Shown here one piece after another: positions 1,289-40,831 of a DNA stretch of 43,771 nucleotides. The stretch's first letter is position 1; each line of letters opens with the position of its first letter. The stretch is from Planctomycetales bacterium (GTDB taxonomy: Bacteria > Planctomycetota > Planctomycetia > Isosphaerales > Isosphaeraceae), in the NCBI GenBank assembly GCA_027459775.1, contig DAIDHE010000238.1:1-43771 (forward strand), read 5' to 3'. Under the pieces are notes generated by a model, which was not told the DNA's origin, did not search any database, and saw only the letters and a list, made by a program, of their open reading frames with translations. The position numbers were made by a program, and so were the translations under genes.

Positions 1289-1384
1289 ATGGCCGCGGAC
1301 GGACGCACGGACGCTGTCATTGACTCGTCGACGCTCATCAACTTCCTGAAGATTGACCGAGCCGACCGATTGGCCCGTCATCAC
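1289..1384 (+). pseudogene. N-terminal fragment of a PIN-domain gene
   Basis: From ATG at 1289 about 32 codons read like the start of a PIN-fold nuclease: a short polar leader, then AVIDSSTLINFLKIDRAD and a Leu-Ala-Arg-His stretch. The D in VIDSSTLINFL fits the first metal-binding aspartate of PIN domains. Similarity ends near base 1385, and the frame then runs on only as the antisense of the large minus-strand gene, so the other active-site acids are absent. I take it as a toxin-like gene truncated at or near the 3' end of its neighbour. Confidence 0.5.
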
Positions 1385-1426
1385 CAGTTATTGAACCGTC
1401 GCTCTTTCGTCCTCAATCTCCCCGAT

Positions 1427-4400
1427 TCAAACCTTCGAAGCCTGAGGCGATTCCGAGCGGCGGCCCAATCCGCCGTCGGGGCTGGCGTCGGGCTCGGGGT
1501 CGCCGGGCTCGGGATGTTGGTAGCCGCCCAGGCTCCAGACCAGCTCGCTGTTGTGCTGAAGATCGAGCATCGTCAGGCTCTGGACGGCCCGCAAGACCAG
1601 GATCTGATCGCTCCAGAGATCGGTCCGCAAGAGCACCTCGTGCATCCGGGCCTTGACCGCGGCCCACGGGTCAGCGCCCCCCTGCCCCAGCACGACCTTG
1701 ATCCAGCCCCGGACGATCCGGCGATGGGTACGGAGGTAGCGCGCCACGCGGCGCCTGCCGACGTCGTCGAGGACGGGAAAGCATGGAAGGGTGAACAAGT
1801 CGGCGTCTGGGCGCTTCACACGATGCACGGGCCGCCACAGCCTGCGCAGCCGGAGCACCGGGTCGGGAAGGCCCGGAGGAAGCCCGTCGGCGTCGTTCTT
1901 GCGTTCGGCCGACCACGCGATCACACGCTCCAGGGCCTCGATCGAAAGCGCCAGCGTGGCGATGTCGTCGTGGTCCAGCACGCACGCCGCCGTGAGCGCG
2001 CGAAGCGACTCTCCGCCGCGATTGGCCAGATACGGGATCTCGGCGGCGAGGTATTCGCCCAGGCCCTCAAAGTGGAACCCGAACCGCTTGAGCCAGAGCC
2101 GCACCCACTCGAGCCGCTTCTTGTGCAGCCGCCGCGCTTGCTCGGCCACGATCCGGTCGCGGCGGGTCGCCCGGATATAGTCGAGGTCGACCTCCATGAG
2201 CGCGGGCGCGGCAAGCGCCGCCGGCGCGGTCGGCAAGGCCAGCCCCACATACTCGACGTCGAACCGCGCCCGCAACCAGAGCGAGCTCATGAAGATCGGC
2301 TTGCGCATCCGGTGGATCTTGCGCAGGGCCGCCCAGTAGGTGTCGGCCGGGATCAATTCCTGGCGATCGACCTGGGGATGCAGGATCTCGCGTACGAGCG
2401 CCCGCACGCCCTTGAGCGCATGGATCACCAGCCAGCCAGCGCCCCTGGCGAGCACGAACGGCAGGAACAACATCCGCCCCCCCGCCAGATGACGGTGATA
2501 AAGGGCGAAGAGATTGATCGTGCGCGCCGAAAGAGGCAAATCATGAAGCGGGAAGCTGCGAAACGCCCTGCGCACGTTTTGCTCGCGGTCGCGGCGGGCG
2601 AGCTCGGCGACCTGGGGGCCGAACCGGGCCTCGATCTCGGCCTCGCGGAGCGGGTCGTCGGCCATGAAGTCGACCGCCGTGAACTCGACCGTCTCCAGAA
2701 ACTGAAGCGCCTCCCGCCTGCGCAGCGCGACCCCCGCCTGCGCATCCGCCGACCCCAGCCCCGCGTGCTCGCTCGCCGGCTCAGGCAGCCACACATCGCC
2801 AGGATCGATCTTGAGCCGCCCCGCCAACCACCCGCGATAACGCTCGCGGATCGGCGCTGGCGAGCACGCCAGCCGGTCGATGGGGATCGCATTCCGATTG
2901 TAATCGAGGATCAAGATGGCCGTCTCTTGCACGAGCAGCCGGGTGATGTAGTTGAACCACAGATACGGCCCGCCAAGGAGCCCGCCGGCGCGGCTCAGGT
3001 CGAGCCGGTCGAGCAGCCGGCTCTCGCCCAGCAAGTGCCCCAGGTGGCTGCGCCTGAGATTCCCCAGCGCGAGATTGCCCAGAAGCTGCACCGTCGCCTT
3101 GGTGTCCGAGCGATGGAGCGGCGAGCCCTCGAGATAATCCTGATACAGCAAGCGGACGTTACGCAGAAACGCCAGCTCGCGATTCTCGAACAAAAAATGC
3201 GATTGCGTGTGTTGATCTTCATCCTTGGACGGCTCGATCGGATCGGGGACGCGGTCGTCGGAGGCGCGCAAGCGCAGCTCGGGGTCGATCACGCGCTCGG
3301 CCAGGAACTGGGCGTCCTGGTCCCTGCGGCGGTTCTTGAGGGTCTTGGTGTGGGTTGCGAACTGGGCCTCGACCACCCGCTCGCAATAGTCGGCCGACTG
3401 GTTGGCGATCCGCCGCAGCCAGCTCCCGAGCGCCCAGAGGGCCAGGCAAATCACGCCCAGGATGATCACCGGCCAGCCCATCACGATCTGGATCTTGTCG
3501 ACCAATCCCCGCAGCGGCCGCAGGAACCCGGCGGCCCGCACGATCAGATAGACCATCAAGAACCCGCCCCCAAGCCACAACAGGCGTTTGGCCGGGGTCC
3601 GGGTGGCGCTCACGATCGCGCCCCCCAGGCGGTCGAGAAACACCGGCGGCGAGAGCGTCCCCTGCAAGTCGGCCAGGAAATAGACCAGGTCCAGCACCCG
3701 CTGAATCATCTGGCCGGCGTGGTTGGCGGCGAGCGCGACGGCCTCGGCGGGGCTCCGCTCGCGATACGCCAAAAGCTCGCGCGCCCACGGCAGCCTGCGC
3801 ACGCCGGGGATGTTGAGCATCCGTAGATAGCGGTCGGCGGCGGCGACGAACGCCGGGCCAGCGCTATCGAGCAACCGCTCGGGCGTCATCTGGATCAGCC
3901 GCTCGACGACGGCTTCGATGGGGATCTCACGGGTCTCGGCGGTCGCCAGCTCGAGGGCGCTCGACGCGGGCTCGAGCCGGGCGGCCCGCGCCTCGAGGTC
4001 GCTCAAGATCCGCCCCGTCACGACCAGCCGGGCGTTGCGATCGAGCCCAGGCGCGAGCGCCAACCGCGCGTGCTCGAGCTCCGACCGGATCGCACGCAGC
4101 CGATGACGGTCGCGCGATTCCGGGCGCTGGGCCTGAAGCGGCTCGAAGAGCACGATGTTGCGATTGAGCAAACCCGCCAGCCGGCCCACCACCCGGTCCG
4201 AAAGCCGCAACAGCACCAGGCCCACTCGCACCAGCCGCACGATCGGCAACAGCACCCGCAAGAACCGCAGCATCCGCGCCCAGCGGCCCGCGGCCGCCAG
4301 CCCGCTCGAAAGCCCCCCCTGCGAGCCCGCCGCGAGTAAGTCGAGCTCGATCTGATGGCTCAGAAAGCCAAACGGCAGCGACGCCGCCAGGTCGACGATC

Positions 4401-5839
4401 AAGTGGTCGAACAAGAACCCGAGCCGATCGGGCGTGAGAATCAGCTTGAGTGTGAATTCGATCAAGAAAAAGGATGAAAGCGCGAGGTCGATCCCGCCCA
4501 GGAGGCGATGCTCGGCGGGCGAGAGGCCGGCCAGGCGGGTCTGGGCGACGACGAGCTCGAGGACGATCATGCCGCAGAGGGCGATGATCATGACCAGGAC
4601 CAGTGAGTCGAGCCGCCGCGCGGCCGACCGCCCGAGGAGCGCCTCCAGTCGCGCGGCCAGAAGCTTTTCGCGCCAATCCGCGCGAACCCGCCCGCGGAGC
4701 CGCCGGGCCGCGCGGGCCGCGCGAACGAGCCGGGCGTGGGCGGGCGGATCCGCGGCGCCCAGGCCGTCCCCGGTCGCTCGCTCGATCCGCTGGCAGGTCT
4801 GGGCAATCCGCTCGACGTCGCGCTCGAGCAATTCGAGCCGGGCGACGGCGTGCCGCCGCGGCAGATCCTCGATGAACGCCGCGGTCTCGCCAAGCTCGTC
4901 GCGCACGAGCTGCACGATCGCCTCGCAGTGGTCCGCCTGCTCGTGGGGCTCGAGAAGGTCGAGCCGGCCCTCGACGGCGACCGCGAGCTCGGTCCGCCGC
5001 GACTCGAGCCCGCCGCGCCAGTCGGTCGCGGATACGGCGGGCGCGCCCGCCCCGACCTTCGAGCGCCCCGCCGCCGCTTCGCGCTCGTCGATCTCGAGGG
5101 CGGCCGCCTGAGCCTCGAGCCGCGTCAGGTGCAGCCTGCTCCGCCAGGCATCCTCGATCGACTCGGGCTCGAGCGCGCGCTCGAGCTCGATCTTACGCCC
5201 GAGCAACAGCCCGCGCAGTCGATCGCAGCCGGCCTGTAGGTCCGCTTCGCGGGGGTCTGGCCTCCCTTTGTGATCCTTCTCAAGCGTTGACTTGAGCCGG
5301 GCGAGCTCGACCTCGAGCGCCAGGGCCGGCGGATGAGGCGGCTCGCGGTCGAGCCGAGCGATCAAGACCGACAGCCAGTCGAGGTCGGCCCTGAGTCCCT
5401 CGATCGCAAGCGCGATCGTGAGCGGACCCTCGGCCGCGCTCGTCGAGAGCCCGCGGACGGCCGCCTTCGTTTCGCCCAGCCAGCCGCGCAGCCGCGAGGC
5501 GACCAGGCCGCGGCCAGGGCTTCGCGGCTCGAATGCCCCTGGGTCGCCCTCGACCGCTGCCTCGAGATCGATCAGCCGCTCGGCGACGGCCTCGCGCAGC
5601 GCCTCGCCCTCCGCGTCCAGCATGCGGCGGTCGAGCCTGCGCCGAAAGCGCAGCCCGTCGTCGACGGCGTCGAGCCGCTCGGCGAACAGCCCGGGGCCGT
5701 CGGCCGCGCGGCCGAGGCTCTCGCTCTTTCGCAGCCATTCTCGTGCCTTCTCGATCACGTCGCTCAAGCTCGCTGCTCCCCGGCGGGCGTCGACCAGACC
5801 TACGATCGCGGCAACGAGCGCTCGAAAAATCGGAGCCAA
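1427..5839 (-). CDS. 1470-residue membrane protein with a pore-less voltage-sensor-like domain
   Basis: Unrecognised large protein. Residues 1-400 are soluble, Arg/Glu/Leu-rich and probably helical or coiled-coil. Residues about 408-555 look like a voltage-sensor domain: S1 (LVLVMIIALCGMIVLEL), S2 with the FFLIEFTLKLI pattern of the charge-transfer centre, S3 with FDHLIVDLAASLPF, and an S4 of arginines every third or seventh residue (RMLRFLRVLLPIVRLVRVGL). No pore helix or selectivity filter follows. A second hydrophobic pair sits near 750-810 (WLGGGFLMVYLIV; PVIILGVICLALWALG). Residues 810-1470 are soluble with no domain I know. The only in-frame start at the 5' end is TTG at 5839, inside the end of the dipeptidase gene (40-nt overlap), so the start is uncertain. 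Likely inner membrane; function unknown, perhaps voltage sensing coupled to a cytoplasmic module. Confidence 0.8.
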   Translation of the reverse strand: MAPIFRALVAAIVGLVDARRGAASLSDVIEKAREWLRKSESLGRAADGPGLFAERLDAVDDGLRFRRRLDRRMLDAEGEALREAVAERLIDLEAAVEGDPGAFEPRSPGRGLVASRLRGWLGETKAAVRGLSTSAAEGPLTIALAIEGLRADLDWLSVLIARLDREPPHPPALALEVELARLKSTLEKDHKGRPDPREADLQAGCDRLRGLLLGRKIELERALEPESIEDAWRSRLHLTRLEAQAAALEIDEREAAAGRSKVGAGAPAVSATDWRGGLESRRTELAVAVEGRLDLLEPHEQADHCEAIVQLVRDELGETAAFIEDLPRRHAVARLELLERDVERIAQTCQRIERATGDGLGAADPPAHARLVRAARAARRLRGRVRADWREKLLAARLEALLGRSAARRLDSLVLVMIIALCGMIVLELVVAQTRLAGLSPAEHRLLGGIDLALSSFFLIEFTLKLILTPDRLGFLFDHLIVDLAASLPFGFLSHQIELDLLAAGSQGGLSSGLAAAGRWARMLRFLRVLLPIVRLVRVGLVLLRLSDRVVGRLAGLLNRNIVLFEPLQAQRPESRDRHRLRAIRSELEHARLALAPGLDRNARLVVTGRILSDLEARAARLEPASSALELATAETREIPIEAVVERLIQMTPERLLDSAGPAFVAAADRYLRMLNIPGVRRLPWARELLAYRERSPAEAVALAANHAGQMIQRVLDLVYFLADLQGTLSPPVFLDRLGGAIVSATRTPAKRLLWLGGGFLMVYLIVRAAGFLRPLRGLVDKIQIVMGWPVIILGVICLALWALGSWLRRIANQSADYCERVVEAQFATHTKTLKNRRRDQDAQFLAERVIDPELRLRASDDRVPDPIEPSKDEDQHTQSHFLFENRELAFLRNVRLLYQDYLEGSPLHRSDTKATVQLLGNLALGNLRRSHLGHLLGESRLLDRLDLSRAGGLLGGPYLWFNYITRLLVQETAILILDYNRNAIPIDRLACSPAPIRERYRGWLAGRLKIDPGDVWLPEPASEHAGLGSADAQAGVALRRREALQFLETVEFTAVDFMADDPLREAEIEARFGPQVAELARRDREQNVRRAFRSFPLHDLPLSARTINLFALYHRHLAGGRMLFLPFVLARGAGWLVIHALKGVRALVREILHPQVDRQELIPADTYWAALRKIHRMRKPIFMSSLWLRARFDVEYVGLALPTAPAALAAPALMEVDLDYIRATRRDRIVAEQARRLHKKRLEWVRLWLKRFGFHFEGLGEYLAAEIPYLANRGGESLRALTAACVLDHDDIATLALSIEALERVIAWSAERKNDADGLPPGLPDPVLRLRRLWRPVHRVKRPDADLFTLPCFPVLDDVGRRRVARYLRTHRRIVRGWIKVVLGQGGADPWAAVKARMHEVLLRTDLWSDQILVLRAVQSLTMLDLQHNSELVWSLGGYQHPEPGDPEPDASPDGGLGRRSESPQASKV

Positions 5840-6879
5840 TTCCCGTGAAACACGTCGTCAACGGCCGCGCTCGAATAGCCCCGGGCGGTCAAGATCGTGT
5901 CGAGCTTTTGCAGGTCCGAGATCCGGTCGAGCCCCGTCGGCGTTTGCTCCGTCCCGAACCCGCCGTCGAGGTCGCTGCCGATCGCCGCATGATGCGAGTT
6001 CCCCGCAAGCTGGCACACGCGGTCGATGTGATCGGCGGCCGCCGCGATCCCCACGACCTCCCGACTGGTCCGGCCCCGCACCCACCCCGGCGCGAGCATC
6101 CAGGCGTCGAACGCCGCCCCGATCACCGCCCCGCGCTCGATCAGAAGCTTGATCTGATCGTCGCTATACTGCCGGCCGTCGTCGACGAGCGCCCGGCAGT
6201 TGTTGTGGCTGGCGAGGACCGCTCCACTGAAGGCGTCCAGGGCCTGGAAAAAGCTCGTGTCGGAAAGATGCGTCGCGTCCAGGATCATCCCCAGGCGCTC
6301 GAACTCCTTGAGAAGCGCGAGCCCGTCCGCGGTGAGCGGCCCGTCGCCGCCGGTGCCGACCGCGTACCGATTCGCCCCGTAGTGCACCAGATTGACCGAG
6401 CGCAGGCCCATGCTCCACCAGGCTTCGACGTGAGCGATGTCGACGATCGGGTCGGCCCCTTCCATCGCCAGGATGTAGCCCAGCGGCTGGCCCGGCGACC
6501 ATGAGCGCCAGTGCGAATCGAGCTCGGCCGCCGTCGTGATCCGCCGCAAGAGCCCCCTGCGCTCGAGCAGCTCGTAATAGTAAAGCTGGCCGCGCGCGAT
6601 CGCCGAGGCGGCGTCCTGGTTGACAAAGTCCAGCGAGAGCCGGCTCTGGCCCGAGAGCGTTCGAGCCTGCGGCCGAGCGCGTGAAAGCAGCGTCGCCTGG
6701 CAGGCCGCGATCTGGCCCCTCTCCATCTCGGGCAGCGTGGTCGTCGCCCGCCCACGCCCGGGATGATCCGTCATCGCCGCGTCGATCGCGTTCAGGGCGT
6801 CGAGGTCGAGCGTCAGGTCGCGGTCCCAGGAAAGAGCGTTCCAGGCGAGGTCAAGGTGTCCGTCGAAGAGTCGTCTCAT
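5800..6879 (-). CDS. Membrane dipeptidase (peptidase M19, renal dipeptidase family)
   Basis: 359 residues from ATG (6877-6879). The N-terminus has DGHLDLAWN, the HxD zinc-ligand motif of M19 enzymes. Further family marks are DATHLSD, then VLASHNNCRALVDDGRQYSD, a GxVIGxAFDAWM stretch, and AIGSDLDGGFG near residue 310. M19 enzymes use two zinc ions to hydrolyse dipeptides, including D-amino-acid-containing ones. No signal peptide is seen, so a cytoplasmic enzyme is likely. The length is normal for the family. The ribosome-binding site is weak. The 3' end overlaps the large voltage-sensor-like gene by 40 nt, suggesting co-transcription. Confidence 0.9.
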   Translation of the reverse strand: MRRLFDGHLDLAWNALSWDRDLTLDLDALNAIDAAMTDHPGRGRATTTLPEMERGQIAACQATLLSRARPQARTLSGQSRLSLDFVNQDAASAIARGQLYYYELLERRGLLRRITTAAELDSHWRSWSPGQPLGYILAMEGADPIVDIAHVEAWWSMGLRSVNLVHYGANRYAVGTGGDGPLTADGLALLKEFERLGMILDATHLSDTSFFQALDAFSGAVLASHNNCRALVDDGRQYSDDQIKLLIERGAVIGAAFDAWMLAPGWVRGRTSREVVGIAAAADHIDRVCQLAGNSHHAAIGSDLDGGFGTEQTPTGLDRISDLQKLDTILTARGYSSAAVDDVFHGNWLRFFERSLPRS

Positions 6880-18880: not shown

Positions 18881-20215
18881 TTAATTTCCATCAACCGAGG
18901 TCGCGCGGCCGGACTCGGGCGCCGGCGCGACCGGGAGCGCCAACAGCGGCCGCGAGAGGGCGGTGAGCGGGACCAAAAGCGCCGAGTCGGACGCGGCAAC
19001 GGGAAATAGCGTCTTGATGAGTCCATGAACATTGGCCGCCCCCTCGGGAGCTGACAGCAAAGGCGCCGTCGCGCCGGCCAGGACGACGTCCGGGGCGAAA
19101 TCAGGGCCGAGCGCCCCATGGATCTGGATCTCGCCCAGCGCGGTTACCGTGAACGCGAAGCCCAGGGCGCGAAAATCAAGATCGGTCCTGCGCGCGATTT
19201 GTCCCTTGAGCCGTGGCGAGGGGCGAAATCGCATCTCGCGGCTGAGAGCCTCGAGGAGCCCGACCCCGATCGAGCCCGATTCGGCCGTGAGCTCGCCCTT
19301 GACCTCGATCCAACCCGGACCCTGTGCCCCGCGATCGCCCCAGCGCGCGCTCGCGACCTTGAGGCGGGCCCGGCCGCTCAGGTGCTGGCCGGGAAACCGC
19401 TTGCCCACGAGCGCGCCCAGATCGACGTCCAAAAGCGAGCCCGAGAACCGGGCCTCGAGCCCCCCTGCCCCGGCCTTCTTGAGCTCGAGCTCCCCCATGA
19501 CGGTCGCGCGCGGGCCCAGCCATTCTGGAGCATCGAAAAACGCGGACAAGGCGCTCGCCGGCAGCGGCGGGCCCTCGATGGTTTTCACGTTCAGCGTCGT
19601 CGTGATCGGCTCCGTTCGGCGGTCGCGCGTGAGGATCGCCTCGCAGCGGGCCGTCGTTCCCGATCCAGGCGCGGCCAGCGCGACCCTGAGGGTCGCGCTT
19701 TCACGCTCGATCACGCACTCGCCGGCCAGATCCCGAACGACCGCCGCGCCGTCGCCGGTTCCCAGGTCGAGCCGGCACGTCGCCGACGAAAAGCTCACAT
19801 GTTCATAAGATAGTCTACTCAATTGAGCGAGCAGCGCCGCCGTTTGCGCGAGCGCCTCGGCGGGCGAGTCCGCGCGGAGGGCCGGTTCGTCGAGCCGGAT
19901 CGTGAGCTCGCGATCGACCCATTCGAGCTCGACGCTCTCGGCGCGCGCCAGCTCGGCGAGTCGTCCGCCGCGCGGCTCCTCGCGCCTGAGCACGAGCCCC
20001 CGGCCCCGCACCTCGCCCGGCCGCGGGTATCCCACCTCGCGCAAACTGACATGCATCCCCAGCCGGCGACCGAGCTCGACCTCGATGTCGCGCACGTGAC
20101 CCGGCCGATTGATCCGCCACGCCGTCAGGCCGACGTAGGCCGTCGGCACGACCGAGACCAGCGCCAGTACAAGGGTCGCCAACCCTTGCCGAACAGGGCG
20201 AGTCAGGGAAACCAT
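18881..20215 (-). CDS. Membrane-anchored AsmA-like protein
   Basis: 444 residues. ATG at 20213-20215 is chosen for the GGGAGG five bases upstream; an ATG seven codons earlier has none. One N-terminal transmembrane helix (GLATLVLALVSVVPTAYVGL), then a long extracytoplasmic region. Stretches like DIEVELGRRLGMHVSLREVGYPRPGEV, then a GELELKK…GLEARFSGSLLDVDLGALV segment and a GLGFAFTV-like strand repeat, are reminiscent of AsmA/TamB-like beta-rich lipid-handling proteins. That assignment is loose; planctomycetes carry many such proteins without known function. It is upstream of the MMPL gene on the same strand but 321 nt away with a separate promoter candidate. Confidence 0.7.
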   Translation of the reverse strand: MVSLTRPVRQGLATLVLALVSVVPTAYVGLTAWRINRPGHVRDIEVELGRRLGMHVSLREVGYPRPGEVRGRGLVLRREEPRGGRLAELARAESVELEWVDRELTIRLDEPALRADSPAEALAQTAALLAQLSRLSYEHVSFSSATCRLDLGTGDGAAVVRDLAGECVIERESATLRVALAAPGSGTTARCEAILTRDRRTEPITTTLNVKTIEGPPLPASALSAFFDAPEWLGPRATVMGELELKKAGAGGLEARFSGSLLDVDLGALVGKRFPGQHLSGRARLKVASARWGDRGAQGPGWIEVKGELTAESGSIGVGLLEALSREMRFRPSPRLKGQIARRTDLDFRALGFAFTVTALGEIQIHGALGPDFAPDVVLAGATAPLLSAPEGAANVHGLIKTLFPVAASDSALLVPLTALSRPLLALPVAPAPESGRATSVDGN

Positions 20216-20305
20216 CCACGCCTCCCAGCCAATCATCACGCTTGGGCTCAATCCGTGCCGCCATGGCAGGATAGACCAAAAGGGGATTTTGCTCAATGAA
20301 GAAAA

Positions 20306-20325
20306 GCCCGCGGGATCCCGCGGGC
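20306..20325 (-). terminator. Perfect 20-bp palindrome with a T-run on the minus strand
   Basis: The sequence GCCCGCGGGATCCCGCGGGC is fully self-complementary. Read on the minus strand it is followed by TTTTCTT, the form of an intrinsic terminator. It lies between divergent genes, upstream of the AsmA-like gene, so it would act either on antisense transcription from the cytochrome region or as a leader element. Confidence 0.4.
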
Positions 20326-20392
20326 GCTCGGGCTTACGGGGTGCGCCACCCTCTCGCCCGGCGAGGCCGTGCCGGTCGCGGTCGCGGCCGTC

Positions 20393-20398
20393 TATAAT
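20393..20398 (+). promoter_or_regulatory. TATAAT box ahead of the multihaem cytochrome gene
   Basis: A perfect TATAAT stands in an otherwise GC-rich stretch about 55 nt upstream of the chosen start. The hexamer 17 nt upstream (TGCCGG) is a poor -35, so an activator or another sigma factor may be needed. Confidence 0.4.
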
Positions 20399-20455
20399 TG
20401 GTCCTGAATGAGCACGGGGCATCGATGTCCATCTGGAGTCGAGCGCGGGATGGTA

Positions 20456-22192
20456 ATGCGAACGGGATCGCGGGCAGGCGCGATGGGGCTTTTGGGCGGC
20501 GCCGCGATCGCGCTCGCCGCGGGGGTCTTCCTGCTGTGGCCCAGGCTCGAGAGTCCCCGCGTGGGCTCGGGCTGGAGTGCCACGCCCAGACCAGAAGGCG
20601 CTGCTTCCGCTCGCCGGCTTGAGCGAGCCCAGTCGGCTCAATTCGCCACGGCGGGCCAGCGCCTGCTCGAGCAAAAGCGGCTGGTGCTGGGCTGGGCCGC
20701 GCTCGAGGGGGCGCTTCGGCTCGACCCGGCGAATACGCTCGCCCGCAAGGCGCTCGACGCACTCGAGAGCCAGGCCGCATTGGCCGTCGGCGCCGAGCGA
20801 ACCGCCTTGGGCGAGGCCGCCGGACGCGTCGAATCCATGCTCGGGGTCCAGGGAGGAGAGCCCCTCGCCGTCCTCGCCCTGGGCCTCGCCGAGGCCGCAC
20901 GATCGGCCGACGAAGAGCTCGAGCTGCTCGATCGTCTCGAGTACCTGGACCACAACCGTCTGCAAGCCGTGACGAGCCCGGGCGAGGCCATCAAACTGGT
21001 GGCTCGGCTCATGCTCGAATGCGGTCGAACGGACGACGCGAAGCGACTGCTCGAGTCCCTGGCAAAACAGCCCAGCGCGGCGGGCGTGGTCGACCGCGAG
21101 GCCTACTGGCTCCTCTCTCGCGTCCATCTTGCGCGTGACGAAGACGACCTGGCGGACGCCGCCCTCGAGAAGGCGGACGGCTGGGGCGAGGGCGGCGCCG
21201 AGCCCGCGCCGTTCGTCGGCTCGCGCCAGTGCGGCGAGTGCCACCGGACGCTCACCCGGGAACAGCAGCATCGCAGTCGCCACGCCTTGACGCTGGCCCT
21301 GGGCGGGTCGCTCAGCCAGGCGCGGCTGCCCGCGGCGCCCGTCCCTGACCCCAAGATCCCTGGCCTCTCGCATCGTTTCACGCGCCAGCCGAGCGGTCGG
21401 ATCGACGTCGAATCGCGAGCCCGCGAGCGGGTCGTGAAGGCGGTCGTGGACTACGCCGTCGGATCGGGCCGGCACGGCGTCACCATGGTGGCCCGCGATC
21501 AAGCGGGGGTCGAGCGCCAGTTGCGAGTCTCGTATCTGGGCTCGATCGACGGCTGGGGCGCGACCAAGGGAATCGACATGACCACCCGCGAAAACGGCGA
21601 GCTCCTGGGACGGCCCCTTCCCCCCGAGACCGTAAGCCGCTGCCTGCACTGCCACGCGACCTGGTTTCGCGCCGTCGACCTCCGCGTCGCCGGTCCCCGC
21701 GGACCCGAGGCGCTCGATCACGGCATCGGCTGCGAGCGCTGCCACGGCCCAGGCCTCAATCACGTGAAGGCCGTCCAGACCGGATTCGCCCAGTCGGCGA
21801 TCGCGCTCGGAGCGCGCACGCCAGCCGCCGCTCGACTCGCTTCGTGCTATGAATGCCACGCCGCCGACGGCACCCTCAAACCCAGCGACCCCGAATTCAC
21901 CCGCGCTCAGGGAACCACCTTCAAGTACAGCCGATGCTACATCGCGTCCAGGGACCGCTTCGATTGCACCACCTGCCACGACCCTCACCAGATCCTCGAC
22001 GAAACCGCCGCGCATTACGAATCCCGCTGCCTCACGTGCCACGCGGACGGCTCTGCCGGCGCGACCCACGCCCCGACCACGTGTCCCGTCAATCCGCGCT
22101 CCGGCTGCATCGCCTGCCACATGCCCAAGATCGACGATCACTCGCGTCTTAGCAAGCATACGGATCATCACATCCGAGTTCACCGCGATTGA
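20456..22192 (+). CDS. Seven-haem cytochrome c with N-terminal helical/TPR-like region
   Basis: 578 residues if ATG at 20456 is used; ATG at 20450 is equally possible. A single N-terminal hydrophobic helix (GLLGGAAIALAAGVFLLW) anchors or exports it. Residues about 50-240 are helical and TPR-like. Then seven CxxCH haem sites: CGECH 259, CLHCH 396, CERCH 426, CYECH 464, CTTCH 504, CLTCH 525 and CIACH 551. The segment FVGSRQCGECH starts a cytochrome c554/c'-type (PF13435-like) domain, and CHMPKIDDHSR closes it. Haem would be attached in the periplasm. Such proteins carry electrons or act in nitrogen or sulfur redox reactions; no specific partner is encoded here. Paired with the TPR gene 117 nt downstream. 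Confidence 0.88.
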   Translation: MRTGSRAGAMGLLGGAAIALAAGVFLLWPRLESPRVGSGWSATPRPEGAASARRLERAQSAQFATAGQRLLEQKRLVLGWAALEGALRLDPANTLARKALDALESQAALAVGAERTALGEAAGRVESMLGVQGGEPLAVLALGLAEAARSADEELELLDRLEYLDHNRLQAVTSPGEAIKLVARLMLECGRTDDAKRLLESLAKQPSAAGVVDREAYWLLSRVHLARDEDDLADAALEKADGWGEGGAEPAPFVGSRQCGECHRTLTREQQHRSRHALTLALGGSLSQARLPAAPVPDPKIPGLSHRFTRQPSGRIDVESRARERVVKAVVDYAVGSGRHGVTMVARDQAGVERQLRVSYLGSIDGWGATKGIDMTTRENGELLGRPLPPETVSRCLHCHATWFRAVDLRVAGPRGPEALDHGIGCERCHGPGLNHVKAVQTGFAQSAIALGARTPAAARLASCYECHAADGTLKPSDPEFTRAQGTTFKYSRCYIASRDRFDCTTCHDPHQILDETAAHYESRCLTCHADGSAGATHAPTTCPVNPRSGCIACHMPKIDDHSRLSKHTDHHIRVHRD

Positions 22193-22309
22193 TCCCGGTC
22201 CGCGCGCGAATGCGCCGCACTTGTCGTCTGGTCCGTGAATCGTGATGATCGATTGCCCGGAGACGTCGCCTCGATCGGCCGAGGCCGGCGGGCGGACGAA
22301 CCAGAATCC

Positions 22310-23629
22310 ATGAAAACCCTGCCATCGTCCCCGACCGCCGACGATCCGACCCGGAACGCCGCGGGACCGCGCCCACCCCGGCGGTTCCTGGTTCTCAAGC
22401 TCGTGCTGGTGCTGGTCGCCCTCGCGGCGGCGGCGTCTTTCGCGTATCGCCAGGCCTCTCGGCGGGCGCTGGCCCTGCCCGTACGCCAACTGTTCGACGC
22501 CGGTCACTATAACGAGGCTCGCAAGCCCCTCGAGCGCTGGTCGCGGCTCGAGCCCGACTCGGGCGAGGCGGCCTACTATCGTGCGCTCCTGGCGCTGGCC
22601 GATGATCGACCCCGCGATGTCATCGAGGCCGTCAGTCGCGCGCGCGGGCTCGGTTTCGACGCGAGCCGGCTCGATTGCCTGGCCGCCATCTTTCAAGCCC
22701 GCGCCGAGCGCTTCGCGATCGCCGAGCCGGCACTCACGGCCGCCTATCAGGCCCAGACCCCGCCCCAAGCCTTGGTCGCCAAGGAGCTGGCACGGATCTA
22801 TCTCTCGACCTCCCGATTCGGCGAGGCCGCCGCCATGATCGAGCGCTGGCGGGTTCTCGCTCCCAACGACCCGCAACCTTATCTCTGGCGCAATATCGTC
22901 AGCGCCCGCACGCAGCCCGAGAGCGCGATCATGATCCAGAACGATCGGGCCGCACTCCGGCTCGACCCCAACCTCGACGAAGCCCGGATCGGGCTCGCCA
23001 GCGAACTCAGCAAGGAGCGCCGCTTCGACGAGGCCAGAGCAGAATACCTGACTTATCTCAAGCGCAATCCCGGCAACGCGGAGGCGCTCAGCGGGCTGGC
23101 CCGCAATGCCTTCCAGCAAGGCGACCTTGATGCCGGCGTGAGCTATTACGAGCAGGCGCTTCTGACCGCCCCCCGCGAGCAAGAGGCCCTCATCGAGCTC
23201 GCCAACACCGACCTCCGCATGGGCCGATTCGCGTCGGCGCGCGACCGATTCAAGATCCTGATCGAGCTCGAACCGTACGCCCCCGAGCACCGTTCGTCCT
23301 ACGCGCGGGCCCTCAAGCGTCTGGGGGACGAAGCCGGCTTTCGCCGCGAGAACGCCGCGGCCGAGCGGCTGCTCAAGGAGAACGAGGTGATCGCCCAGCT
23401 CCAGTACAACCTGCTCCAAGCCCCGGACGACCTCGATCGCCGATTCGCCCTGGCCAGGTGGATGCTCGACCACGGCCGCACGGCCGTGGGGCTCCAGGGG
23501 GCGAACGAGATCCTCCGTCTGAACCCCAACCACGCGGGGACGCACCGGATCCTCGCCGATCACTACGCCCAATCGGGCGACGCCGGCCGGGCCAATTATC
23601 ATCGCCTGCGAGCCGGCCAGACCCGATGA
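22310..23629 (+). CDS. Membrane-anchored TPR protein
   Basis: 439 residues. ATG at 22310 is preferred over an in-frame ATG at 22235 because the hydrophobic segment LVLKLVLVLVALAAAASFA then sits near residue 30 after a polar leader, as usual for a type II anchor. The rest is a chain of tetratricopeptide repeats, for example LFDAGHYNEARKPLERW, then RFDEARAEYLTYLKRNPGN, AFQQGDLDAGVSYYEQAL and GRFASARDRFKILIEL. Extracytoplasmic scaffold by topology. It follows the seven-haem cytochrome on the same strand and probably helps assemble or present it; this pairing is inference. Confidence 0.85.
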   Translation: MKTLPSSPTADDPTRNAAGPRPPRRFLVLKLVLVLVALAAAASFAYRQASRRALALPVRQLFDAGHYNEARKPLERWSRLEPDSGEAAYYRALLALADDRPRDVIEAVSRARGLGFDASRLDCLAAIFQARAERFAIAEPALTAAYQAQTPPQALVAKELARIYLSTSRFGEAAAMIERWRVLAPNDPQPYLWRNIVSARTQPESAIMIQNDRAALRLDPNLDEARIGLASELSKERRFDEARAEYLTYLKRNPGNAEALSGLARNAFQQGDLDAGVSYYEQALLTAPREQEALIELANTDLRMGRFASARDRFKILIELEPYAPEHRSSYARALKRLGDEAGFRRENAAAERLLKENEVIAQLQYNLLQAPDDLDRRFALARWMLDHGRTAVGLQGANEILRLNPNHAGTHRILADHYAQSGDAGRANYHRLRAGQTR

Positions 23630-23958
23630 GCCCGCGCGACGAAACCAGTCGCGGACAACCGCCGCCATGGACATCGCCAGCGCGCGGGAGTGCTCGGGTT
23701 CCACATCGCCGAAAAGTTCAGGGCGTGTCTGGCGATTCACCATCTCGCTGGGAAAATCCAACCGGCTCATGTCTCTGGTCCTTCGATCGTCTATACTTTA
23801 TGGCAGTCTGGCGACTGGCCCGAGGGCCGACTTGACGAGCAACGCGACTTCCAAGATCCAGGCTTTGCATCTTGGCTCCTCGACATGGGCGAGAATGGCG
23901 ATGGCAATTCGCGGGTCAATCAACGTAGCGGCGAGCCCTTGAGGAGCTGGAGGCAGTC
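23630..23958. other. Gene-free interval (329 nt) of uncertain content
   Basis: No recognisable gene. One plus-strand frame (GTG at 23690 to TGA at 23960-23962) is open for 90 codons and its stop overlaps the next GTG as GTGA, which would allow coupling to the DUF6338-like gene, but the sequence resembles nothing I know and its codon use is poor. Base composition here is visibly less GC-rich than in the flanking genes. Confidence 0.4.
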
Positions 23959-33094: not shown

Positions 33095-36000
33095 TCAGTT
33101 CGTGGGCGACTTGACCCGGACGTCCCCAAGGTCGAGGGTCTGGCCCGTGGCGAGGCTGAAATCCCGCCAGCGCTCGACGTTCTGACCGCACTCGGGTGCG
33201 TATTCGTAGATGCGATAGGTCGCGCCGGGGATCATGTCGGGCAAGGAAACCCGGCCCTTCTCGTCCGAGAGCCGCGGCCGCCAATAGTTCCGGCGGTCGA
33301 TGTTGGCATACGTCTCCTCGTTCGCGACGAGGGCGTTGTGCTCTTCGGCGGTCAGGGATTGGGAAGAGTAGTCGAGCCCTGGACCAGGAGTGGCGACGAT
33401 CTGGAGGTTGAGCGTGCTCTTCGCCACGGCCCGGCCTCGCTGGTCGACGAGCCGCGCGGTCGCCGCCCCGCAGGGCGTGAGCGTCACGGCCAAGGAACCC
33501 GCGGCCGCCATCGCCGGGGTGACATCGACCGTGGCGCCCCAACCATGCTCGGAATCGAGAAACCAGCACGTGACGGGCCGGTCGACGGGCAGGCCGTGGA
33601 GCTCGAACCGGCCGTCGCGGACGGGGATCGTGAAATCGCCGCGCCACGAAGTGTGGTACGGCGAGATGGTGAGCACGGTGATGATCTCCGCGCGCTGGAC
33701 GGCCTGGCCGGCCGGCCCCACGACGCGGCCGACGAGCGTGACGCCTCGTTCCAGCGGCACGTCGATCAGACGCGGTTCCGGCCCCGGCTTGACCTCGAAA
33801 GGCACGATCGCGTGGGCGTAGAGGCGTCTGCCGCCAGGCTTGCCCTCGGCGAGCTCGCGGCTTCCCATCATCTGGTGCACGTAGTCGGCGGTCGGTCCAT
33901 AAACGAACAGGCATCCCTTGCCAGGTGGGACGGCGATCGCATACCGGCCGTCAGCGCCGCTTGGAACGGCGGCCAACCAGCCGGCGACCGTCCCCCGAGC
34001 GCCGACCGCGCTCGAGCGATCCAGCTCGTGGTAGACGCTCGACCCGGCCAGCGGGCGGCCGCTGCCACGCTCGGTGATCCGGCCAGTGAGCAGCACTCCG
34101 CGAGCCGCGCCGAGATCGACCTTGCGGCTCGAGACGCCGGCCTCGTTCTCGAGGTCGCGCACGACGATCAAGTAGGGCGACCCCGCTGGCGGATAAACGA
34201 CGATCCGCAGGTACTTCCCGGGCGCGGAGTTGGCTGCGTACCGGCCGTCGGCGTCGGTGCGGTATTCGTAATCGTTGGTGATCCCTCGCCTGACGCCGGT
34301 CCCGACCTGGACGATCGCGCCGCGCAGCGGCTCGCCGGAGTCTGCGCACGTGACGCGGCCGGTGACGCGGAATGCCGGTTGCAGCGCCAGGGCGGCCTGT
34401 TTTGGCCCGTTGGTCATGTCGGTCTCGAGGGAGAGCCGTTGGCGGGCGAAGCGTGGGTCTTGCACCAGCAGGCGGATCCGGAGCCCGCGCCCGAGCCCGG
34501 CGATCCGGAAGCGGCCGTGGGCGTCGGTCTTCGTCGGCTGGGGCCAGACGCCCTCCAACCCGGCGGGGACCGTCGTGTGAAAGTTCAGACCGTCGAAGCC
34601 GCCAACCTCTTTCTTGACGACTCCGACGCTTTCGACTTGCACCTCGACATCGGACGCGGGCGCTCCCCGCTCGCTCGTCAGCCGGCCCTCGACGACCTTT
34701 TCCGGCCTTAGTTTCAGGTTCACCGAGGGTGATTCGGCGTCGCGATCGAGCTCGGCCCACCCCAGCCCGAAGCCCGGCGCCAGGGCCAGGACATACGCCT
34801 CGAAATGAGTGACGTTCGACGTCGGTCGCGTCTCGAGCCGAAACCGTCCGTCGGCGTCGGCCTGCGCGCCGCCAAGCGATTCATACTGATCAGCGGCCCG
34901 AGCGCTCATGAGCGCCAGCTTGCGCCGACCCACCACGGCCACGCGCGCGCCCGCCGCGGGGCGGCCATCGCCGTCAAGAACGCGGCCCGAGACGATCATC
35001 GTGGCCGACCGAACGCCGGCGGTCGTTTTGACCTTTTCGCCCTGGTCGCCGCCCATCGACCAGGCGCTCAGCCGCGCCGACGAAATGGGAAGAATCAAGG
35101 CCGTCGCCGCCGCGAGCAGCAGACACGCGCCGCGACGGCCCACGACCCGGCGATCGCGGGAACCGTCGAGGATCGCGCGCAGCCGACCTTCGATTTGCGA
35201 GTCGCGGGCCATCGGCGCCGCCGCGGCCGCGAGCCCGCGAGGCGCGCGAAGCGCCCGAGCCACCTCGAGCAGATGCCCGGCGTAGTCCGCGGCCCGCGAC
35301 CCGGACTGGAGCACCAGATCGTCGCAGGCCCGCTCGCGCTCGATCATCAGCCGCCGCGCGGCCGCCCAGGCCAACGGGTGAAACCAATAGAGGGCGCAGG
35401 CGAGCTGGGCGACCAACTGGGTCAGGCAGTCGCATCGCTTGACGTGGGCTAGCTCGTGCAAGAGCACGTCGCGCAGCAGTTCGCGGGGCCATTCCTCGGC
35501 CCCGGCCGGCACGAGGATGAGCGGGCGCAGCACGCCCCAGGTCATCGGCGAAGTCGCGCCGTCGCCCCGCAGCACCACCACGCGCCGCCAGAGGCGCGGC
35601 GACGCGCCGAGCTGGGCCGTCAGATCGACCCAAGGCCCGTCGACCAGCCGGGTCGATCGCCGGCGAAGCCGCTGGAGCCGCCCCTGGCCCACGAGCATCG
35701 AACCGAGCACGGCCACGGCCCCCACGCCCCAGACCGCGGCCAACCACGGCGCCCAGGATCGCGCGAAAGCCCCCGACCGGTCGGACGTCGTGGGCAGCGC
35801 GAAGCGGCGTGTCACGGGCGCGATCCCGGCTGGCGGCTCGTCGATGACCATGCGGTCAGCCTGCAGGGGAGCGGGCGTCAGCGCCACGGGCCATGCCGTC
35901 GGCTCGGCCGGAACGGCCATCCGCTGGTCGAGCCCCGCGACGAGCAGGACCGGAATCCGCCACGCAGGCAGGGCCAAGGTCAGCGCGGGCATGACGAGGG

Positions 36001-36181
36001 CCGCGGTCAAGCCCACGGCCCACGCCATGTGGCGCACGGCCGCGGACGAGCGCCTCAAGCAAGCGCACGCCAGGCCCGCCGCGGCCAGGACGAGCGTGGC
36101 CCTCAAGACGATCTCGAGCGCGAGCATCCACCACGAACCGACGCCGGAGGAAAGCAACACCAGATCGATGAGCCTTTTCAT
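33095..36181 (-). CDS. M56 (BlaR1-like) membrane protease with carboxypeptidase-regulatory-like repeats
   Basis: 1028 residues. ATG at 36179-36181 follows AAGGAGGGG; a TTG two codons upstream is too close to that site. The first 330 residues are BlaR1/MecR1-type: several transmembrane helices, RHMAWAVGLTAALVMPAL, and the zinc motif HELAHVKRCD at 242-251 with ERERACDDLVL. A last helix (LLLAAATALILPIS) leads to about 600 extracytoplasmic residues of six carboxypeptidase-regulatory-like repeats, each starting like SGRVLDGDGRPAAGARV, VEGRLTSERGAPASDVEV, VTGRVTCADSGEPLRGAI and LVGRVVGPAGQAVQRAEI. The penicillin-binding sensor of true BlaR1 is absent. The stop of blaI-like is two bases upstream; it probably cleaves or inactivates that repressor on a signal. 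Confidence 0.88.
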   Translation of the reverse strand: MKRLIDLVLLSSGVGSWWMLALEIVLRATLVLAAAGLACACLRRSSAAVRHMAWAVGLTAALVMPALTLALPAWRIPVLLVAGLDQRMAVPAEPTAWPVALTPAPLQADRMVIDEPPAGIAPVTRRFALPTTSDRSGAFARSWAPWLAAVWGVGAVAVLGSMLVGQGRLQRLRRRSTRLVDGPWVDLTAQLGASPRLWRRVVVLRGDGATSPMTWGVLRPLILVPAGAEEWPRELLRDVLLHELAHVKRCDCLTQLVAQLACALYWFHPLAWAAARRLMIERERACDDLVLQSGSRAADYAGHLLEVARALRAPRGLAAAAAPMARDSQIEGRLRAILDGSRDRRVVGRRGACLLLAAATALILPISSARLSAWSMGGDQGEKVKTTAGVRSATMIVSGRVLDGDGRPAAGARVAVVGRRKLALMSARAADQYESLGGAQADADGRFRLETRPTSNVTHFEAYVLALAPGFGLGWAELDRDAESPSVNLKLRPEKVVEGRLTSERGAPASDVEVQVESVGVVKKEVGGFDGLNFHTTVPAGLEGVWPQPTKTDAHGRFRIAGLGRGLRIRLLVQDPRFARQRLSLETDMTNGPKQAALALQPAFRVTGRVTCADSGEPLRGAIVQVGTGVRRGITNDYEYRTDADGRYAANSAPGKYLRIVVYPPAGSPYLIVVRDLENEAGVSSRKVDLGAARGVLLTGRITERGSGRPLAGSSVYHELDRSSAVGARGTVAGWLAAVPSGADGRYAIAVPPGKGCLFVYGPTADYVHQMMGSRELAEGKPGGRRLYAHAIVPFEVKPGPEPRLIDVPLERGVTLVGRVVGPAGQAVQRAEIITVLTISPYHTSWRGDFTIPVRDGRFELHGLPVDRPVTCWFLDSEHGWGATVDVTPAMAAAGSLAVTLTPCGAATARLVDQRGRAVAKSTLNLQIVATPGPGLDYSSQSLTAEEHNALVANEETYANIDRRNYWRPRLSDEKGRVSLPDMIPGATYRIYEYAPECGQNVERWRDFSLATGQTLDLGDVRVKSPTN

Positions 36182-36183
36182 GA

Positions 36184-36573
36184 TCAAAGCCCCTCCTTGC
36201 GGGCCTGGTTGATGAGGCGGGAAAGGCGGTCAAGGTCTTCCTCGGTCAGGTTCGCGTCGGGCGCGCCCAGCAACGCGGCCACGGCCTGGGCCGTCGACCC
36301 CTCGAAGAACGTCCGCACCAGCCCCTTGAGGGCCGATCGCCGCGCCTTTTCACGAGGCACGGTTGGCAAATAAACATAGCGCGGGCCGTCTTGCACATGC
36401 CGCAGACGCCCCTTCACCTCCAACACCCGCAGCAAGGCCCGCACCGACGAGTAACTGGGCGGGTCGGGCAACGCCTCCAGCACGTCGCCGACCGTCACGC
36501 GGCCGAGTCGGTAAACGACGTCCATGATTTGCCGCTCGCGGCGGCTGAACGGGTCGTGCGTGGTCTTGGCCAT
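36184..36573 (-). CDS. BlaI/MecI/CopY-family repressor
   Basis: 129 residues; ATG at 36571-36573 with GAGGGGGGA ten bases upstream. Winged helix: RRERQIMDVVYRLGRVTVGDV, then PSYSSVRALLRVLEVKGRL (recognition helix) and a wing reading RHVQDGPRYVYLP. The C-terminal half holds the dimerisation helices (ALKGLVRTFFEGST, AVAALLG, LTEEDLDRLSRLINQARK). The FFEGS region is near where BlaR-type proteases cut BlaI. It represses its own operon; a dyad and promoter sit 70-110 nt upstream. Paired with the M56 protease (2-nt gap), the standard sensor-repressor arrangement. Confidence 0.92.
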   Translation of the reverse strand: MAKTTHDPFSRRERQIMDVVYRLGRVTVGDVLEALPDPPSYSSVRALLRVLEVKGRLRHVQDGPRYVYLPTVPREKARRSALKGLVRTFFEGSTAQAVAALLGAPDANLTEEDLDRLSRLINQARKEGL

Positions 36574-38392: not shown

Positions 38393-40651
38393 CTACATGG
38401 TCCATTCCGACTCGAGCACTCGACCCAAACCGCCCCCCTCGGTGGTCGGTCCCCAGACGAAGTCGCCGGCCTTGTCGATCAGACCAACCCAGTCGCCCCG
38501 TCGCACTTCCGCCAGGCCATGCTCGAACGGTTTGACCTGGTCGAACTGGGGCGCGATCGCCCAGCGCCCCTCAGGGTCAATGAACCCGTGAATCATGGAC
38601 CCGCAAGTTTCACCGAACGCGGCGGCGGCCAGGCCTTCGGAGAAGGGCTCGACGTCTCGATAAGGAAGTTCCCGCAAGACCCGGCCGGCCCGGTCGATGA
38701 GAAAGCTGGTCGCGCGCCATTTCCTTCCCCGGCGCGTCACGACGGCAACGCCGTCCTTGAAGGCCGTGGCCCACTTCCATTTCAGCGGAATGACCCGCTC
38801 GCCGCTTTTGTCGATGTAGCCGGATCGCATGCGATAGGGAGAGCTGCCCAGCCATACGACCGCCAGACCTTCCGAGAACGAATGAAAACCGTTGTAATCG
38901 CCGGGGATCAGAAGACGGCCCGCGCGGTCGATCGAGCCGTACTTGAAGGCGGCGATCCTTTCGGCGCCGGCCACGAGGGGGTCGGGTTTCATGGTCCAAC
39001 CCGTGCACACGACGGCCCGACCCTCGCGAAAACCATCGGCCTGGGTCCACTCGGCCGGGATGACGACATTCCCTGAACGGTCGATGAAGCCCCGCCGCGG
39101 GGCGCACGACCAGACGTCGCCGCTGTTGTTTCCCAGGTCTGGGGGGACTTGATATCCGGCCAGCCCCTCGGCGAACGGGGTCACCGAATCGTGCACGGGC
39201 TCGATCACGACCCGACCCTCGCGATCGACGAAGCCCCACTTGTTTTGCTTCTTCACGGCCGCCAAGCCCTCGGAGAACAGCTTGATCTCGTCCCAGGGAC
39301 TCTCGAAAACCTCGCGACCGTCGCGGTCGATCACGAAGGTGGATCCTTCGTCGTCGCGGACGACCGCCCTGCCGTCGATGAAGGGCTCGCCCCACGCGAA
39401 CCGCGTCTGGAGGACAAGCCGGCCCTGGCGATCGATGTAACATTGCTTACCCTGGCTCGTCACGGCGAAGAGCGGTTCGTCATCGGCGATCGGTTCGGTT
39501 CGCCGGGGCGGAATCGCCGCGCGCGGGACCGTGATCGAGCCCGCGGCGATGCGTTCGATCGCCTCCCGAACGCGGTCGGCTTCAGCGGTTCGGCCCTCGA
39601 TCGGACCTTCGATAAATTGGAGCAGGCGAGGCAATGCGGCGCGCGCTCGCGGCCCATACTGGCCGAGCGCTGTCACGGCGGCGTCGGGCAAGCTCTCATC
39701 GTGAAGGAACTCGGCCCAGTCGCACACCGCGATCAGCAAAGGCACGAACCGTTCCGGGTCTGGCGTCAGCGTTCCGAGCGCGTGCGCGGCCGCGCGCGCG
39801 ATGTAGCCGTTCGAATCGCGGATCGCGGCGTCGAGCACGTCGAGGAATTCAGGCAAGGGAGCGCCCTGCTCCGCGAGCGCGTCAATCATGCGGGATCGCT
39901 CCGCCTCGTTGCCCCCCTGGAACGTCAGCAGGTCGCCGGCCGCCGGCTGTGCAGCGGCCCCGATGAACTGCATTACCTCCATCGCGGCCAGTCGCGCTTG
40001 ATCGCCGCCATTCGCCAGCATGTCGCGGAGTGCGACAAGCACGCGGTCGTCGAACCGGCTCGCGCTCGCCAGCGCCTGCGCCAGGCTCGACGGCCACTCG
40101 GAGATCCCCTGGTTCCGCAGCTTTTCCAGGAGCTTCGGCACGGCGCCCACAACGGCCGGGCCGGCGTGCGCCAGCACGAACCGCAGAGCTCGGTCGCAAT
40201 CGTCATCGAGAGTTCCCAGGGCTTCGATGATCGGGCCGATGTGCGGATCGATCCGCTCGCCCGCCAGCTCGAGCGTTTTCCGCAACCGATCGACGGCGAT
40301 CATATTGTCAAAGTCGAACGCCGGGGGGCTCTCGCCCGTGGCGACGGCTTCGCGATAGTCGCGGTGATGGACGCGTTGTTGCCAAAGCTGCTCAAGGAAC
40401 CGCTCGATCCATGCTGGAATCAGCGTCTCGAGATCGTTCTCGAGCGTCGCCAGGGCGGCTCGATCGGCCTCGAGCCGACGAGCGGCGGCATCTCGCCCAG
40501 GGTCGCTCGGCTCGTGATCCGGGGCGTTTCGTTCGGCGTCTAATCCTCGCAACGCCCGGGCGGCCGGGGCGCAGCCTTCCGGCTCGGCCAGCCGCCGGAG
40601 CCATTCCGCATGGTCTCGGACGCGTTTGTCCGCATCGTCCGGCGAATTCAC
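38393..40651 (-). CDS. WG-repeat protein with HEAT-like N-terminal half
   Basis: 752 residues. GTG at 40649-40651 is preceded by GAGGGA five bases upstream; the frame is open to a TTG at 40753 with no site. Residues 60-370 are helical HEAT-like repeats (for example VVGAVPKLLEKLRNQG, DERVL-like helices and YIARAAAHALGTLTPDPERF). Then about eight WG (KWG) beta repeats, such as WGFVDREGRVVIEPVHD, GFIDRSGNVVIPAEW, GSIDRAGRLLIPGDY, GYIDKSGERVIPLKW and GFIDPEGRWAIAPQFDQVKP. No signal peptide. WG repeats form beta-propeller-like scaffolds of unknown binding partner. Its stop lies next to the repeat-rich region. Confidence 0.85.
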   Translation of the reverse strand: MNSPDDADKRVRDHAEWLRRLAEPEGCAPAARALRGLDAERNAPDHEPSDPGRDAAARRLEADRAALATLENDLETLIPAWIERFLEQLWQQRVHHRDYREAVATGESPPAFDFDNMIAVDRLRKTLELAGERIDPHIGPIIEALGTLDDDCDRALRFVLAHAGPAVVGAVPKLLEKLRNQGISEWPSSLAQALASASRFDDRVLVALRDMLANGGDQARLAAMEVMQFIGAAAQPAAGDLLTFQGGNEAERSRMIDALAEQGAPLPEFLDVLDAAIRDSNGYIARAAAHALGTLTPDPERFVPLLIAVCDWAEFLHDESLPDAAVTALGQYGPRARAALPRLLQFIEGPIEGRTAEADRVREAIERIAAGSITVPRAAIPPRRTEPIADDEPLFAVTSQGKQCYIDRQGRLVLQTRFAWGEPFIDGRAVVRDDEGSTFVIDRDGREVFESPWDEIKLFSEGLAAVKKQNKWGFVDREGRVVIEPVHDSVTPFAEGLAGYQVPPDLGNNSGDVWSCAPRRGFIDRSGNVVIPAEWTQADGFREGRAVVCTGWTMKPDPLVAGAERIAAFKYGSIDRAGRLLIPGDYNGFHSFSEGLAVVWLGSSPYRMRSGYIDKSGERVIPLKWKWATAFKDGVAVVTRRGRKWRATSFLIDRAGRVLRELPYRDVEPFSEGLAAAAFGETCGSMIHGFIDPEGRWAIAPQFDQVKPFEHGLAEVRRGDWVGLIDKAGDFVWGPTTEGGGLGRVLESEWTM

Positions 40652-40831
40652 GATGTCCCTCGCATTCGCTTTTGGAGACTTGCTTTCCTGTCGAATTTCC
40701 GTGTTTATGAAGATCACTGATTGTGTTGAACTCAGGCCGCCATGAACTGACAATGTTGTAACAGACCGTGTGGGCGTTGATGAATTGCGTTCGTGTCACT
40801 CACGACGCGTCCGGCAGTAGCCTGGCCCGCG

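Follow-up and report, generated by a model that had tools for sequence, protein, structure and literature searches.

The gene on the reverse strand at positions 1427-5767 of the window (the whole 43,771-nucleotide stretch of planctomycete DNA analysed here) probably encodes a voltage-sensing effector without an ion pore, to judge from its sequence, its predicted structure and the analogy with known voltage-controlled proteins. Sequence and predicted structure show a Kv-type sensor whose gating-charge ladder and charge-transfer centre are intact, no pore domain, a later transmembrane hairpin of two helices, and large all-helical N- and C-terminal regions, which go with the sensor in each complete family member that was examined. 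We give about an even chance to the broader claim that in this family, as the first among prokaryotes, a non-channel effector is driven directly by membrane voltage, the protein being a voltage receptor spread across the planctomycete phylum whose cytoplasmic domain is new. The features are listed below; residue numbers throughout follow the first-pass annotation, which counted from a 1470-codon ORF in which the TTG start is residue 25.

1427-5767, reverse strand: coding sequence, TTG start, 1446 amino acids (residues 25-1470); homologues start at the same place
4655-5767, reverse strand: N-terminal region (residues 25-395), entirely helical and less conserved than any other part
4160-4654, reverse strand: voltage-sensor domain (VSD), S1-S4 and the following helix (residues 396-560), assigned from Ion_trans, PDB profile and structure alignment
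4541-4609, reverse strand: S1 (residues 411-433), with acidic residues at positions 411 and 428 and no conserved acid in mid-helix
4433-4498, reverse strand: S2 (residues 448-469), with D451, F458, E461 and K465 in a charge-transfer pattern
4349-4417, reverse strand: S3 (residues 475-497), with D483 (D/E in all) and P489 (in all)
4205-4306, reverse strand: S4 (residues 512-545), with R519, R522, R525, R528, R535, R538 and R545
3596-4159, reverse strand: helical stretch joining S4 to TM5 (residues 561-748, about 190 residues)
3515-3586, reverse strand: TM5 (residues ~752-775), from hydropathy in 47 homologues
3416-3484, reverse strand: TM6 (residues ~786-808), with near-invariant G795, C798, G805 and W807 and a short loop before it
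1505-3337, reverse strand: C-terminal conserved all-helical region (residues 835-1445), with many invariant R, D, N and Y
2390-2476, reverse strand: hydrophobic helix (residues 1122-1150), possibly membrane-associated; median Kyte-Doolittle (KD) value 1.67 over 19 residues in 46 homologues
5800-6879, reverse strand: upstream Peptidase_M19 (membrane dipeptidase) gene, a conserved neighbour among close relatives only

The reading frame at 1427-5839 on the reverse strand is present, intact and conserved in relatives. The first-pass annotation had taken it whole, as a 1470-residue protein overlapping a dipeptidase gene, and both points call for revision. By sequence comparison, the true start is almost certainly not at 5839; it is the TTG at 5767, which is preceded by GGGGAG. 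This codon was chosen because the nearest homologue, whose frame is open for just six codons 5' of the same TTG, has no other start there; other homologues have a GTG or TTG start at the same place. With this start the protein has 1446 residues and the overlap disappears, the gene starting about 32 bp past the stop of the Peptidase_M19 gene. An 845-residue ORF on the opposite strand (1289-3826, forward) was dismissed as probably an effect of high G+C content and third-position bias, the reverse-strand protein being the conserved one.

The dipeptidase neighbour was considered as a functional clue and rejected, as it is conserved solely in close relatives of the window. Neighbouring genes vary between clades, and the comparison of gene neighbourhoods found no neighbour conserved phylum-wide; therefore no function is drawn from them. 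Elsewhere in the window, all on the reverse strand, lie a possibly degraded or frame-shifted DUF1559-type (prepilin-like) gene at 568-1246, in which only the first 28 profile positions match and the remainder is split over two overlapping frames; a 1629-residue ORF at 18881-23770 without a Pfam match; a 1030-residue ORF at 33095-36187 with a BlaR1-type M56 peptidase domain and carboxypeptidase-regulatory-like domains; and a 786-residue ORF at 38393-40753 that has WG repeats and weakly matches HEAT repeats.

Sequence and model evidence agree that residues 396-560 are a genuine S1-S4 voltage-sensor domain belonging to the VSD superfamily. All the marks that the first-pass annotation had placed at about residues 408-555 (S1, the S2 pattern, the S3 aspartate and the S4 arginines) are present. 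In the protein of the window S2 reads F458-L-I-E461-F-T-L-K465 and S3 carries D483 and P489, so that the charge-transfer centre (an aromatic residue and an acid in S2, an acid in S3) is in place. The charge-transfer pattern that had been read in S2 thus stands, but its wording as FxxxEFxLK does not; FxxE(F/V)xxK/R describes it better. S4 reads R519-WA-R522-ML-R525-FL-R528...R535-LV-R538, with four every-third arginines (519, 522, 525 and 528) followed by 535 and 538.

Profile searches point the same way. Ion_trans scores 25.8 bits in the profile search of the window's genome, above the gathering cut-off, and slightly below the cut-off of 25 in a plain hmmscan (22.4 bits). This gene is the sole Ion_trans match in that genome, which is about 90% complete, and the profile matches 16 of 17 full-length homologues, with E values down to 8e-10. 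A profile of the whole protein finds the sensors of voltage-gated channels in the PDB (Kv2.1 at 7e-8). When the profile is confined to residues 395-562, 130 PDB sequences match at E <= 0.01, with a best E of 4e-10; the 60 of them that were listed are Nav, Kv, HCN, CaV and hERG channels, matched over S1-S4. The isolated KvAP sensor (1ors) is matched at 1e-6.

Structure prediction gives a four-helix sensor bundle, as the first-pass reading implied. In a model of residues 25-575 (mean pLDDT 82.8) S1-S3 reach 84-94 and most of S4 63-84, and the S3-S4 loop is low; a model of residues 375-1452 is of moderate confidence (mean pLDDT 69.0). VIA-align favours VSDs: S1-S4 channels or sensors make up 46 of its 50 listed entries, and most of these align across residues 386-544. 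Kv4.2 reaches Z 10.9 (5.4 A over 138 residues), Kv3.1 Z 10.1, and the isolated sensor of Ci-VSP Z 10.1 and 9.6 (4g80: Z 9.6, with 120 of 128 residues at 3.2 A). The Kv1.2 chimera, Nav1.7 and CaV3.3 are also among the matches, as are TRP channels. The separate model of residues 25-575 aligns with Nav1.7 sensors over model positions 379-526, corresponding to residues 403-550. The comparison with known voltage-sensor folds had a divided outcome: Foldseek returned no match at E <= 0.001 with either model, whereas VIA-align found sensors at Z 8-11, a range reachable by chance for helical bundles, although the ranking itself is VSD-specific. A few long-helix proteins also returned by VIA-align (vinculin, SUR1) were taken as common helical arrangements, these alignments having probed mainly the VSD.

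The sensor residues are conserved across the phylum. Among 45 non-redundant relatives, every sequence has an acid at positions 451, 461 and 483 and a proline at 489, and 96% have a basic residue at 465; in the set of 47 members E/D461 and D/E483 occur without exception, and position 458 is F in 35 and L in 12. Arginine occupies S4 columns 513, 516, 519, 522, 525 and 528 in 65, 82, 96, 62, 93 and 86% of the 45 relatives, respectively, and columns 535, 538 and 545 in 93, 100 and 93%. Six successive every-third columns rich in arginine (513-528) were reached in none of 2000 column shuffles. Each of the 58 members examined carries five or more basic residues in S4, and in 30 of these members six or more stand in a run at every third position; the rest are irregular, with an S4 short by 3-10 residues in several members or a broken every-third register. 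In L057, L063, L067, L107 and L116-L118, S4 lacks 3-10 residues or more, with R538 and D548 kept. As far as sequence can tell, most members have the S4 pattern of a working sensor, but the variation is real. Since S4 is shortened or irregular in some of them, the gating charge must differ between members or be low in some, and the shortened forms offer a natural series on the amount of gating charge that is required.

This variation could be taken to mean that S1-S4 is a static relic, a Kv-derived membrane anchor or assembly domain that does not move under voltage. Besides the short or irregular S4 of some members, such a reading may draw on the replacement of F458 by leucine in a quarter of them and on TRP channels, which have domains of this kind and are also aligned with the model. 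TRP-type domains lack most of the S4 arginines. Here, however, six every-third arginine columns, R535/R538 and the counter-charges persist phylum-wide, and an anchor would not need them. We therefore regard a static domain as unlikely.

No pore helix or known filter follows S4 in the protein of the window, as the first-pass annotation had it, and the two hydrophobic helices that it saw near 750-810 are TM5 and TM6. Both have a hydropathy above 1.6 in 98% or more of the 47 members. The PDB profile matches end at S4, and the S5-P-S6 pore with filter of the voltage-gated cation channels is not found. The same VSD profile also finds an ordinary Kv channel in a related genome, L021 (6e-12); in that channel, by contrast, the sensor is followed by S5, a pore and TVGYG. 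It is nonetheless conceivable that the protein is a six-helix channel in disguise, in which TM5-TM6 would serve as S5-S6 and form an oligomeric pore whose filter is unusual, with the 190 residues after S4 as an insertion. Its four plus two transmembrane helices are indeed ordered as in voltage-gated channels, and TM6, with its near-invariant residues, extends into a long helix, a common trait of S6. Yet the stretch from G757 to G795 measures 33-41 residues in almost every member and leaves about 10-15 between the helices, too little for a pore helix plus filter; none of the 47 members has a K+ filter motif, or a filter of the TxGYG/TxExW type at a plausible place; and a profile of the C-terminal part finds no channel. 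A hidden pore is accordingly an improbable explanation.

A VSD without a pore is also the layout of Hv1, and the first-pass annotation had offered a proton-channel-like sensor as one option: the sensor itself would conduct protons and the cytoplasmic regions would regulate it. In Hv1 the selectivity aspartate lies in the middle of S1. According to PMC4429351, Hv1 depends on an aspartate for its selectivity, and a conserved S4 tryptophan is a further Hv1 feature (PMC10377628). In the planctomycete family no acid is conserved in mid-S1 (412-427) where Hv1 requires its aspartate, and the invariant Hv1 tryptophan is absent from S4, W520 occurring in a few close relatives only. The two absences disfavour conduction of the Hv1 type, which would also leave a very large conserved C-terminal region without explanation; we consider it highly improbable. 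A voltage-gated enzyme, the other option first put forward, may still apply.

The long C-terminal stretch, for which no family had been assigned at first reading, is conserved as would be expected of an active domain. From residue 565 on, 27 columns are invariant in 43 sequences with identities down to 27-28%. Many of these columns are R, D, N or Y, with motifs such as HRSDTK, DYN and RKIHRMRKP, and many of the best conserved positions fall within residues 835-1445. This part of about 880 residues (43 members) gave chance-level matches only in Pfam, NCBIfam and PDB sequences, as did the whole protein against PADLOC and PHROGs. The searches revealed neither a catalytic domain nor a known enzyme family in it, and those in Pfam and PDB showed no PTEN-like phosphatase domain after S4. 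Helix 1122-1150 is weaker than TM5 and TM6, being hydrophobic enough for membrane contact or crossing in about half of the members; it could bring the last 300 residues to the opposite side of the membrane. At the other end, the N-terminal region is shorter in some relatives, with ORFs of about 1200 residues.

Matches were found in 69 of 392 evenly drawn Planctomycetota genomes (57 of 266 genera). About 55 of the 69 match the large protein, whose relatives occur in roughly a seventh of the genomes sampled; the rest are mostly short ORFs of about 260-360 residues, matched through the VSD and presumably ordinary channels. Within the class, the C-terminal part is present in 32 of 298 genomes, in one at E 6e-4 only. 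Eleven further members were picked mostly by their C-terminal part (L113 and L119, whose longest ORF is antisense, were left out), and all eleven carry the VSD, which indicates that sensor and C-terminal part are inherited together. Indeed, no form without VSD or without effector was met among the complete members examined; the apparent exception, G241, was set aside because its sequence stops at a contig edge. No relatives were found on plasmids or viral contigs. A scan of genomes from all phyla returned Planctomycetota or unnamed MAGs only, a result that covers two strict peptide patterns and does not prove absence from other phyla.

How such a protein might work can be proposed from these elements. 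The sensor would sit in the inner membrane with both the N- and C-terminal regions in the cytoplasm, as the arginine-rich ends and the analogy with known systems suggest. Upon a change in membrane potential, the S4 arginines would pass E461, D483 and F458. S4 is predicted to form a single helix, about 50 residues long, that reaches into residues 545-565, and the movement of S4 could be passed through the 560-750 segment to the TM5-TM6 hairpin and on to the C-terminal domain, whose interaction or activity would be switched by it.

A 2023 review concluded, after database searches, that a K+, Na+ or Ca2+ pore accompanies every prokaryotic VSD (PMC10377628), and the pore-less examples named in the available portions of a 2024 voltage-sensor review (PMC13095418) are eukaryotic only. 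No paper on planctomycete voltage sensors was found among the open-licence papers searched, and within that literature the present family would be the first exception to the rule. A conserved bacterial exception would mean that the coupling of the sensor to a non-pore partner also arose in bacteria. The family suggests that in Planctomycetota membrane voltage controls targets other than channels, and it would supply a direct molecular candidate for bacterial membrane-potential signalling. It may also offer a new coupling partner for engineered voltage-controlled proteins, and its orphan region of about 880 residues a defined target for structural work.

With Kv channels and KvAP the planctomycete protein shares the S2 FxxE(F)xxK/R, the S3 D-x5-P, the every-third arginines and the 7-residue step to R535, together with the profile matches to the Kv2.1, Kv3.1, Kv4.2 and KvAP sensors; it differs in having neither S5-P-S6 pore nor K+ filter. 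Hv1 and TMEM266 likewise consist of a pore-less S1-S4 domain with cytoplasmic ends, but the planctomycete protein lacks the mid-S1 acid and the S4 tryptophan and carries very large conserved extra regions. TMEM266 is the nearer of the two, since it senses voltage and is not known to conduct, according to PMC6392501 and PMC13095418. The sperm Na+/H+ exchanger SLC9C1, as described in PMC13095418, is another case of a VSD controlling a non-channel protein, although the planctomycete protein has no exchanger or cyclic-nucleotide domain. The closest working analogy is with the voltage-sensing phosphatases (Ci-VSP, TPTE), in which a pore-less S1-S4 sensor is also joined to a non-channel module. The putative effector is a different one, all-helical and much larger in place of a PTEN-like phosphatase, and the planctomycete protein, which is bacterial, adds a large N-terminal helical region and the TM5-TM6 hairpin to this plan.
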